Source of the DNA: a virus
IMG/VR virus record: IMGVR_UViG_3300029267_002725
Location: 1-30,798 of that record
Length of the DNA stretch: 30,798 bases
Reading direction: 5' to 3' (one strand)
A program made the translations under genes and the position numbers. This document shows, in pieces, positions 1-2,788 of the stretch (positions are counted from its first letter, which is position 1; each line of letters begins with the position of its first letter). Under the pieces are notes generated by a model. It was not told the origin of the DNA, did no database searches, and saw nothing but the letters and a program-made list of their open reading frames with translations.

Positions 1-144
1 TATACCGAATACTATCCTTACAAACAAACCGAGGAATCCTTAAAAAAGGTTGGCTATGAAGTATTGGTATTTATCGCATCAAAAGAAGAAGATGAAAGCA
101 GAATAACATGCGGAAACGCAATATTAGCCGATTCAACTGAGTAA
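1..144 (+). CDS. RlmN/Cfr-like radical SAM enzyme, 3' end only (cut by window edge)
   Basis: Frame 1 is open from the first base to TAA at 142-144 and encodes the last 47 residues of a radical SAM methyltransferase of the RlmN/Cfr type. It includes the C-terminal ITCGNAIL motif, which holds the methyl-carrier cysteine. The DNA is identical to positions 1589-1732, the 3' end of the complete gene downstream. Identity stops exactly at the stop codon; the flanks then differ. The start lies outside the window, so it cannot be said whether this is a full second copy, a remnant, or an assembly effect at a contig end. It is followed after 28 bases by a small zinc-ribbon-like gene. Confidence 0.65.
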   Translation, partial: YTEYYPYKQTEESLKKVGYEVLVFIASKEEDESRITCGNAILADSTE

Positions 145-316: not shown

Positions 317-538
317 GTGAATATTGAATTTGATAAAGATTACAGACACAAAGGGAACGGACATCTTTACCGTGTACAAAGAAAAGTTTTAGTTAAGCAA
401 CTAGATGGTTCATGGGTTAAAGGTGTTGCCTACCAAAGAACAGATGCAGATTACAACGGACAGGAATATATCAGGACTGATAAAAATTTTGTAGACAGGT
501 TTGAAAAAGAAAGTACGGGTTCGATTCCCGGTCGGTAG
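317..538 (+). CDS. Small unknown protein, 73 aa, 3' end overlaps a tRNA T-arm-like hairpin
   Basis: The frame starts at GTG 317 and runs to TAG 536-538. Residues 1-64 look like a small beta-rich phage protein, with YRHKGNG near the start, a central VLVKQLDGSWVKGVAY stretch and a terminal NFVDRFEK; there is a weak resemblance to DUF1653-type proteins (YRH...K-G at the start, MF-EK at the end). The last nine residues (ESTGSIPGR) are encoded by DNA that folds as a tRNA TPsiC arm, so the natural C-terminus may have been replaced by a junction. The start is uncertain: no good ribosome binding site lies at normal spacing, and an upstream ATG at 310 gives only a 5-residue peptide. Confidence 0.5.
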   Translation: MNIEFDKDYRHKGNGHLYRVQRKVLVKQLDGSWVKGVAYQRTDADYNGQEYIRTDKNFVDRFEKESTGSIPGR

Positions 539-737
539 CTGAGGACTGGTGTGAAGGGAGCTTGGTTCGATTCCAAGTGATTGTACTCTGGTGAGACAAA
601 TAGCTCGGTTGACCCGACCGTTAAAGCTAAAGCGGAATCTTTAGCAGGGGTTAATCAAAATGGGGATAGCGGTGACAAGTAAGCCTAGGATACTAAGTCA
701 AAAATCGCCTACACCGTTAGCAGGGCGACTATTCCCA
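512..737 (+). ncRNA. Candidate structured RNA with two tRNA T-arm-like hairpins
   Basis: Between a small gene and the RlmN-like gene the sequence is rich in pairing. Hairpin 1 is CGGG-TTCGATT-CCCG (516-530). Hairpin 2 is CTTGG-TTCGATT-CCAAG (561-577), a perfect 5-bp T stem with a canonical 7-base T loop. AGTAC (512-516) can pair with GTACT (583-587) around both, though it shares C516 with hairpin 1. TAGCT-CGGT (601-609) can pair with ACCG (617-620) and AGCTA (625-629). GCTAAAG (626-632) pairs perfectly with CTTTAGC (639-645) and competes for 626-629. TGGGGATAG-CGGTG (661-674) pairs with CACCG (712-716) and CTATTCCCA (729-737). No complete tRNA cloverleaf could be fitted, and no known RNA family was recognised. 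It may be a leader of the downstream gene, an independent RNA, or tRNA debris. Confidence 0.45.
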
Positions 738-763
738 CTCAAAAAACTAAGGATATTTGAATT

Positions 764-1732
764 TTGAAGATTTTAAAAAATATAGAAGTTCCAACGGGTA
801 ACATACTCATCGTCGCTGGAGAAAAGGGTAAATTGGAGTGTCTCTCCATTAGTGATTACGGAAAAGACGTAAATCTTAAATGCGACTCAATGGGATTGAG
901 CAGAGAACCTGAAAAGGTTAGACATACTAAATTACTACCACTTGAAGACAAATGGGTGATAACAATATCGACTCAATATGGCTGTTCTATGGGCTGTAAT
1001 TTTTGCGATGTACCCAAAGTAGGAAAAGGTAAAAACGCAACCCTTAATGATTTAGTTAACCAAGTAAAAACAGCAATGTCATTACATCCCTACGTTGTCC
1101 ATTCAAAAAGAATAAATCTTCACTACGCCAGAATGGGGGAACCTACATGGAATCCTAATATTTTTGCTGCCACGAAAGAAATAGGTTTTTTACTTGAAAG
1201 TAGGTCTTTTGGTTTTCATCCTGTTATTTCAACAATGATGCCTAGAAAAAACAAAAACCTAAAATCATTCATAGAAGAGTGGATGAGAATTAAGAATGGT
1301 ATTTGCAAAGGTAATGCAGGGTTGCAGCTTAGTATAAACTCAACCTGCGAACTAGAAAGAAAAAGAATATTCGGAGGAAACGCATGTTCATTATCTGAAA
1401 TATCTTCGATTATGTATGGTATTAAACCATTGGGTAGAAAAATTACACTAAACTTTGCTATTGCTGATTACGAAATTCTTCCAAATGTGTTGTTGGATTT
1501 CTTTGATCCTGATTTATACATAATCAAGCTTACTCCTATGCACAAAACAAAGTCGGCAATCATAAACGGAGTTAAAACAAAAGGCGATTATACCGAATAC
1601 TATCCTTACAAACAAACCGAGGAATCCTTAAAAAAGGTTGGCTATGAAGTATTGGTATTTATCGCATCAAAAGAAGAAGATGAAAGCAGAATAACATGCG
1701 GAAACGCAATATTAGCCGATTCAACTGAGTAA
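764..1732 (+). CDS. RlmN/Cfr-family radical SAM RNA methyltransferase-like protein
   Basis: This 322-residue protein matches the RlmN/Cfr layout. The 4Fe-4S motif CX3CX2C is C74-SMG-C78-NF-C81, preceded by ISTQYG as in RlmN (SSQVG). An RMGEP segment at 123-127 matches the MGMGEP of RlmN, and ITCGNAIL (C312) matches the C-terminal motif that carries the methylated cysteine (Cys355 in E. coli RlmN). Family members methylate C2 of adenosine in 23S rRNA (A2503) and tRNA (A37), or C8 in Cfr. The second conserved cysteine, seven residues before the cluster (Cys118 in E. coli), is threonine 67 here. At 322 residues it is shorter than E. coli RlmN, and the N-terminal domain looks reduced. Start is TTG at 764 with AAGGA 10 bases upstream. 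Substrate is unknown. Its last 144 bp are duplicated at the window start. Confidence 0.85.
   Translation: MKILKNIEVPTGNILIVAGEKGKLECLSISDYGKDVNLKCDSMGLSREPEKVRHTKLLPLEDKWVITISTQYGCSMGCNFCDVPKVGKGKNATLNDLVNQVKTAMSLHPYVVHSKRINLHYARMGEPTWNPNIFAATKEIGFLLESRSFGFHPVISTMMPRKNKNLKSFIEEWMRIKNGICKGNAGLQLSINSTCELERKRIFGGNACSLSEISSIMYGIKPLGRKITLNFAIADYEILPNVLLDFFDPDLYIIKLTPMHKTKSAIINGVKTKGDYTEYYPYKQTEESLKKVGYEVLVFIASKEEDESRITCGNAILADSTE
1589..1732 (+). repeat. 144-bp perfect direct repeat, second copy (first copy at 1-144)
   Basis: Positions 1-144 and 1589-1732 are identical. The copies end together at the TAA stop codon of the RlmN-like gene; the next bases are AGGTAATTG in the first copy and GAAAAATAC in the second. 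The left limit of the first copy is the window edge, so the repeat may be longer. Offset between copies is 1588 bp. Confidence 0.95.
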
Positions 1733-2254: not shown

Positions 2255-2788
2255 TTGAACGAACTTATGGATGGTCAAGAAAAACATATCAAAGAAACAC
2301 TTATGCGTAGGGACAGTGTACGTAAGGTTCTTAAGCAACGCATCAAGCAGGTAGGGCTTGGTAATGGTAAGGGAAGAGGAATTGATTTACCTCTTCTCGG
2401 TGTTAAAGATATTAAGAAATCTAAAATGTGGATACTAGAGCGTATCCTTGTTGACGCGCCGAAGGAGGATGTTAGTGAGCATGTGCGCTTAAAGCTAGGG
2501 GTAACTTCCTTGGTCCCTAGCTTGATAGACCTAACTCCACGTAACTTTGAATGGCTTAGAGGCATACACGACAGTACCTTGCAGAGTCTTAGCTATATCG
2601 TAAATAGAATGATTGAGTCGTGTAGGTACGACGTACCATGGGAAGTAGAAGAAGCAAAGCCAGAAGAAATCGTAAAGGCTCTTGCTCTTTTAAATAAATA
2701 TGAAGGAACTAAGAGAAATGTCAGTACTACAAAGAGATCTGCCTTTAGTAAGAGAGGCCTTGCTGACAGAGCAAGTATTGAGCCTTGA
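2255..2788 (+). CDS. Unknown early protein, 177 aa, overlaps DNA polymerase start
   Basis: The frame from TTG 2255 to TGA 2786-2788 encodes a basic, mostly helical protein with no motif I recognise. A G-rich loop (GLGNGKGRG, about residues 34-42) and a central V-rich segment stand out. Start choice is open: TTG 2255 lies only three bases after AAGGA (2247-2251), and the next ATG (2267) lies 15 bases after it. The 3' end overlaps the polymerase gene by about 70-90 bases in another frame, so the last 25-30 residues are constrained by both genes. Its position directly before the polymerase suggests a role in replication or early takeover, but this is only context. Confidence 0.65.
   Translation: MNELMDGQEKHIKETLMRRDSVRKVLKQRIKQVGLGNGKGRGIDLPLLGVKDIKKSKMWILERILVDAPKEDVSEHVRLKLGVTSLVPSLIDLTPRNFEWLRGIHDSTLQSLSYIVNRMIESCRYDVPWEVEEAKPEEIVKALALLNKYEGTKRNVSTTKRSAFSKRGLADRASIEP

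Follow-up and report, generated by a model that had tools for sequence, protein, structure and literature searches.

Results

A structured RNA precedes an RlmN-like gene

The window, a 30,798-nucleotide stretch of viral DNA, carries on its plus strand a conserved structured RNA at 512-653, a second stem-loop at 661-738 and, at 764-1732, a TTG-start gene for an RlmN-like radical SAM protein. The protein falls in phrog_24834 (E=3e-104) and also matches the NCBIfam RlmN family (E=1e-11) and solved RlmN chains (E=3e-6). An open reading frame at 317-538 terminates within the RNA. On the far side of the enzyme gene, the open frame 1735-1953, whose head has no start codon and which matches no family, is plausibly a truncated gene 3' of 1732; sister phages with the gene at 2255-2788 were sought as a test of insertion, and none was found. 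In addition, AACCAAGGATAATTGAA recurs at 292-308, 745-761 and 2243-2259, each time 5' of an apparent TTG-start gene, and is probably the translation-initiation context of this phage.

A sequence-only reading of this region had pointed to two T-arm-like hairpins ahead of an RlmN-family gene, and both hairpins are present as described, perfect and with TTCGATT loops (516-530 and 560-578). The same reading gave the structure about 225 bases of strongly pairing sequence. The structured RNA is real, but its conserved core (512-653) measures 142 nt and its folding energy is ordinary (z = -0.66 for 505-745 and z = -1.11 for 512-657). Since folding energy alone is uninformative, the reality of the RNA rests on its homologues and on covariation. 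The stem-loop at 661-738, which has a 9-bp closing stem and two hairpins in a loosely tRNA-shaped arrangement (fold z = -2.15), lies outside the RNA family, and no homologue of it was found in the loci examined.

The RNA recurs in unrelated phages

We searched 2.9 million viral contigs for pairs of GGTTCGATTCC motifs spaced 24-46 bases apart and collected members from the matches listed. The window and many loci with the same motif spacing have in common the blocks CTCG..GAGG, CTGGTGTGAAGGGAG, CTCTGGTGAGACAAA, the CGGAAT loop and GGGGC. A narrower pattern combining the T-arm with GAAGGGA gave two matches, while additional patterns and a profile search brought the collection to at least about 30 long homologues. 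The resulting covariance model, R1 (167 positions, 38 pairs), scores the window RNA at 146 bits (E ~1e-39) and identifies at least 31 loci as strong relatives (87-176 bits), plus phage OBP at 117 bits. At least about 28 weaker or 3'-shortened variants score 27-72 bits by R1, including loci in a Pseudomonas sichuanensis contig (adjoining a phage repressor), an Acidobacteria MAG (adjoining an integrase) and a Caballeronia pedi contig.

The carriers are many unrelated phages, among them giant phages of Pseudomonas, Klebsiella, Salmonella and Shewanella. Seven are named isolates with scores of 117-164 bits: Pseudomonas phages OBP, D6, Ebordelon and Holyagarpour, Klebsiella phage FBKp24, Salmonella phage SA002 and Shewanella phage SXP01. 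Outside the model-building set, R1 gave 164 bits for Holyagarpour, 163 for Ebordelon, 157 for D6, 156 for SA002, 141 for SXP01 and 117 for OBP; FBKp24, at 130 bits, is kept apart from this set because it probably corresponds to L274, which was in the model. Each of 40 records examined, including the window's genome, holds exactly one copy.

A search of Rfam 15 with the window RNA and its relatives returned no family above the gathering cut-off. We found no description of such an RNA in the open literature, although the family may already figure among RNAs predicted in bulk from phage genomes. The genome paper of D6 (PMC11139720) lists 14 tRNAs but no noncoding RNA, and the RNA is unannotated in OBP, D6, Ebordelon, Holyagarpour and SXP01. 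In SA002 an annotated protein, ACSA002_2056, overlies the RNA (L313:3528-3647, plus strand) and is likely a false gene call.

Covariation defines the fold

Applied to 22 homologues, RNAalifold returned 24 pairs, 20 of them with compensatory changes and some belonging to a previously unproposed long-range helix; a column scan of the alignment further revealed P3, a pseudoknot and the optional P4. P2 was first read as a local CUCG/CGAG hairpin, an assignment given up in favour of the long-range P2, whose covariation is far better. The covariation test used a MAFFT alignment of 19 sequences that was not fitted to the structure. Here, 93.5% of 755 cells are paired, and 33 of the 42 pairs show changes on both sides. 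Double-change cells number 201 against 57 in shuffles, and the covariation score is 0.65 against 0.19. None of 500 shuffles reached any of five measures, and sliding the pairings by 1-3 columns left only 34-45% of cells paired. Because members were collected by exact motifs, selection partly accounts for the constancy of GGTTCGATTCC and CTCTGGTGAGACAAA, and likewise for that of the T-loops and CUCUGG; the covarying helices lie largely outside GGTTCGATTCC and CTCTGGTGAGACAAA. The structured RNA with T-arm-like hairpins, first perceived in one genome, is conserved and covaries in other phages: covariation shows a real structure of six helices and a pseudoknot, with P4 absent from the window copy and also from L082, L127 and L199.

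In window coordinates, all on the plus strand, the fold begins with P1 (515-531), the first T-arm-like hairpin, in which 515-519 pair with 527-531 around the loop UUCGAUU (520-526); its outermost pair, 515/531, is unpaired in the window, and four of its five pairs show both-side changes across the family. P2 (537-541 with 601-605) is the long-range helix closing the multibranch, with 98.9% of cells paired and double changes in four of five pairs. Enclosed by it are the joining segment J1, ACUGGUGUGAAGGGA (545-559), then P3, the second T-arm-like hairpin (560-565 with 573-578, loop UUCGAUU at 566-572; 93.5% of cells paired, double changes in 4/6 pairs), and a CUC-UGGU-GAG mini-hairpin (586-595), whose helix is nearly invariant, partly through the choice of search pattern. 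P5 (606-610 with 616-620), with the loop GACCC, is paired in 100% of cells and has double changes in four of five pairs, and P6 (626-632 with 639-645), capped by a CGGAAU loop, has them in all seven. The pseudoknot joins ACCC of the P5 loop (612-615) to GGGU 3' of P6 (648-651). It is paired in 81.6% of cells of the unadjusted alignment and covaries across members as ACAC/GUGU, GCUA/UAGC and GCAC/GUGC.

An elbow-like contact of T-loop 1 and a probable one of T-loop 2

In the tRNA elbow, the second and third T-loop nucleotides (55 and 56) contact G18 and G19 of the D-loop, the 19-56 pair being Watson-Crick and exposed; this D/T-loop contact is used by viral tRNA mimics, RNase P, T-boxes and the L1 stalk (PMC4810234). 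We looked for such contacts in the Infernal alignment of the best 34 members by ranking all columns by mutual information, the elbow contacts having played no part in model building. Over all columns, the top partner of the third nucleotide of T-loop 1 is the third nucleotide of CUGGUG in J1, the combination being C-G in 29 sequences, A-U in three, G-C in one and a C/A mismatch in one. The second nucleotide of T-loop 1 likewise has the neighbouring base, J1 nucleotide 2, as its top partner (U-G 29, G-U 2). In the window, the partners of U521 and C522 in T-loop 1 would be G548 and G549 of J1, giving the equivalents of 18-55 and 19-56 in tRNA. These counts are of sequences and not of events, and because the departures from C-G include related jumbo phages, independent changes are fewer than the four sequences suggest. 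The alignment gives good support to a first elbow in which T-loop 1, set on the D-loop-like CUGGUG, reproduces the G19-C56 pair of tRNA.

For T-loop 2, the best match of the third nucleotide is the second G of the UGGU loop (C-G 31, G-U 1, a single compensatory change), which in the window makes G591 the proposed partner of C568. A second elbow, formed by docking of T-loop 2 on the UGGU loop, is probable on this comparison.

The resemblance to tRNA has limits. In several jumbo phages T-loop 1 deviates from the consensus of tRNA, so TruB or TrmA cannot modify it throughout the family. An acceptor stem, a CCA end and an anticodon arm were not seen in the conserved RNA, which makes aminoacylation or decoding unlikely.

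Genomic context of the RNA

ARAGORN places a tRNA within 600 nt of the RNA at 13 of 30 loci, against 6.1 expected from random placement within the same loci, and these tRNAs lie on the same strand as the RNA. About half of the 30 loci, the window included, have no recognisable tRNA gene near the RNA, and ARAGORN found none anywhere in the window. The RNA directly adjoins tRNAs in OBP, L124, L112, L194 and L282. It lies just 5' of tRNA-Asn and tRNA-Ser in OBP, about 270 nt past tRNA-Ser in FBKp24, and between tRNA-Leu and a terminator-like hairpin in D6. Among 109 proteins flanking the RNA, no recurrent neighbour was found apart from ordinary phage genes, present in two to four copies. Since the flanking proteins have no common family, the RNA appears to act as a free-standing element and not as the leader of one gene.

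Several further observations were made around individual copies. In Ebordelon and Holyagarpour (L302, L316) a long hairpin stands upstream of the RNA, and its arms differ between the phages yet remain complementary. At L147:7600-7679 (plus strand) there is a Proteo-phage-1 RNA (RF03044), and about 350 nt further downstream a shortened variant of our RNA. At L059:1581-1669 (minus strand), ARAGORN calls a tRNA-Trp over the T-arms of the RNA, in appearance a false positive, and phage tRNA counts may include such calls.

The RlmN-like neighbour and the 144-bp repeat

phrog_24834 is common in phages (41 loci, L001-L041), and none of the 41 whole records of these gene relatives carries the RNA. Conversely, phrog_24834 at full strength occurs in a single one of the 40 RNA-bearing records, the window itself. 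The pairing of RNA and enzyme seen at this locus is thus not upheld by co-occurrence. Any RlmN relative at all is found in three of the 40 (the window, the L194 contig and D6), always less than 1.5 kb downstream of the RNA; in D6 and the L194 contig this is a TIGR00048-like gene at 1.4 kb and 0.8 kb, respectively. Both have the order tRNA-Leu, RNA, tRNA-Ser, tRNA-Cys, tRNA-Thr, RlmN-like gene, and on account of this common order they count as one lineage. We read their RlmN proximity as that of one lineage with its translation-related genes grouped, while noting that the proximity is repeated.

In the window enzyme the iron-sulphur cysteines (CxxxCxxC) are conserved, as is a cysteine resembling Cys355, C312; Thr67 occupies the position of RlmN Cys118, so ordinary RlmN chemistry is not to be assumed. 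The targets of RlmN are A37 of tRNA and A2503 of 23S rRNA, not T arms. With this specificity, the missing Cys118 equivalent and the absent co-occurrence, the idea that the RNA is a substrate, decoy or guide of the enzyme is not supported. Throughout phrog_24834 (window 764-1732 and L001-L041) the Cys355 equivalent is kept and threonine stands at the Cys118 position. E. coli RlmN without Cys118 traps a covalent RNA adduct, so the enzymes of phrog_24834 may have another way of resolving it or may themselves trap RNA.

The last 144 bp of the gene (1589-1732) recur as a 100% identical direct repeat at 1-144 (plus strand), as the sequence-only reading had recorded. The first base of the window is also an end of the virus record, so the repeat shows just that the RlmN-like 3' end exists a second time, either upstream or in a variant strain. 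Duplication of the gene or strain variation may lie behind it, and it provides no evidence for an RNA-enzyme unit. The repeat contains no part of the RNA, which is itself single-copy, and this speaks against a cassette in which RNA and enzyme move or duplicate together.

Discussion

We propose that window 512-653 is the gene for a free-standing, noncoding phage RNA about 140-170 nt long. Where phage tRNAs neighbour it, the RNA would be transcribed with them and released by tRNA processing. Acting in trans as a tRNA mimic, it could then offer a pair of elbow faces to elbow-gripping host proteins or RNAs, for which RNase P, T-loop modification enzymes, the ribosomal L1 stalk and tRNA-targeting defence nucleases are candidates; its mode would be that of a decoy or cofactor, not exerted through the adjacent RlmN-like enzyme. 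A free-standing double-elbow RNA that mimics tRNA for elbow-recognising host factors is the reading we favour, although tentatively, its function being an inference. With greater reserve, we consider it possible that the RNA represents a widespread class in jumbo and small phages, whose two elbows capture or reprogram the host machinery that processes tRNA, modifies it or translates with it, an undescribed form of takeover by RNA.

A narrower version would make the RNA a decoy specifically against host tRNA-cutting defences, such as anticodon nucleases and effectors akin to them. There is a known link between these defences and phage tRNA clusters, and elbow mimicry might confer affinity for tRNA-binding effectors; however, known anticodon nucleases recognise the anticodon arm, which the RNA lacks, and no defence-related neighbour recurs, so we regard this specialised role as unlikely. 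A cis-regulatory leader of the next gene, riboswitch-like or T-box-like and in the window serving the RlmN-like enzyme, would suit the window, L301, L286, L292 and L278, where a protein gene starts shortly 3' of the RNA. But the downstream gene varies among phages and belongs to no conserved class, in many members it is a tRNA, in D6 a terminator-like hairpin comes next, and no alternative resembling an expression platform is conserved. We therefore think regulation in cis improbable. The compact pseudoknotted fold, its long conserved unpaired segments and its frequent position between tRNA genes could instead belong to a ribozyme or RNase-guiding module that cuts the tRNA-cluster transcript. 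No Rfam ribozyme family matches it, though, tRNA genes are missing around many copies and the flanks vary on both sides, which makes a processing or catalytic element a poor prospect as well.

The two remaining alternatives carry very little weight. That the RNA is a substrate, guide or decoy travelling with the RlmN-like enzyme is suggested by their adjacency in the window and by the RlmN relatives downstream of it in D6 and the L194 contig, and is very improbable given the 0/41 gene-relative records with the RNA, the 37/40 RNA records in which no RlmN relative occurs, and the repeat that leaves the RNA out. Remnants of tRNA or tmRNA genes would account for T-arm-like hairpins and for members within tRNA clusters. 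A decayed-tRNA explanation had been anticipated in the sequence-only reading; ARAGORN and Rfam find no such gene at the RNA, and an unrelated fold is strongly conserved in many phages, so that decayed tRNA or tmRNA is ruled out by covariation, ARAGORN and Rfam and is scarcely credible.

Phage-encoded structured RNAs are poorly known and their function is rarely assigned. The present RNA offers a well-supported fold, a recognisable tertiary module in the tRNA elbow and seven named isolate phages, with no entry in Rfam 15. If the proposed double-elbow RNA binds elbow-recognising host factors, phages would interfere with tRNA metabolism through RNA mimicry, and the RNA may help to explain further unexplained RNAs of phage tRNA clusters.

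Other T-arm-bearing elements were observed alongside. At L127:1137-1220 (minus strand), directly after the RNA, an 84-nt element consists of both ends of tmRNA (RF00023, 50.6 bits, above the cut-off) with neither tag frame nor pseudoknots, i.e. an ORF-less mini-tmRNA. A tRNA-like sequence at L124:4473-4563 (plus strand) has an ACCA end, an 8-bp acceptor-like stem and two T-arms, one replacing the anticodon arm. A second phage RNA family, whose members have a conserved AAATAGGGCGGCAGCCCGCCTAGG-like block and three or four T-arm hairpins, occurs at L090 ~1430-1660 (plus strand) and L157 ~2270-2530 (minus strand, reverse-strand coordinates) and, by eye, in L108, L144 and L054, an acceptor-like stem closing some of the copies. 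This second family may be part of a larger superfamily of multi-elbow RNAs.

Comparison with known systems places both enzyme and RNA apart from their nearest counterparts. The window enzyme has CxxxCxxC and the Cys355-like C312 in common with the RlmN/Cfr radical SAM methylases, but carries Thr67 for Cys118, and phrog_24834 is a separate phage family. The RNA resembles tRNA and tmRNA (RF00005, RF00023) in its T-arm hairpin sequence. The RF00023 match covers just a 15-nt T-arm (9.7 bits), and acceptor stem, anticodon and tag frame are absent; by ARAGORN and Rfam there is no tRNA cloverleaf with acceptor stem and anticodon arm either. The species 1 and 2 RNAs of T4 (rnaC, rnaD) are likewise stable RNAs of a phage tRNA cluster, and rnaC has a T-arm hairpin. 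They score at most 12.6 bits by R1, from one T-arm hairpin, and are not of the same family. Bacterial Y RNA YrlA (RF02553) is another noncoding RNA with a tRNA-mimicking module; it does not match the phage RNA, and a weak hit below the cut-off appeared just in a tRNA-like sequence that follows the RNA in SA002. GOLLD, ROOL and other large phage or tRNA-linked RNAs are also ornate and phage-borne (PMC12286853), whereas the RNA described here has no Rfam match and spans 140-170 nt. Viral tRNA-like structures such as the TYMV TLS reuse the T-loop/D-loop contact with a G19-C56-type pair (PMC4810234), as the phage RNA appears to do. In contrast to them, it has no acceptor-like 3' end and no sequence relationship, occurs in DNA phages and combines two putative elbow modules in one RNA.
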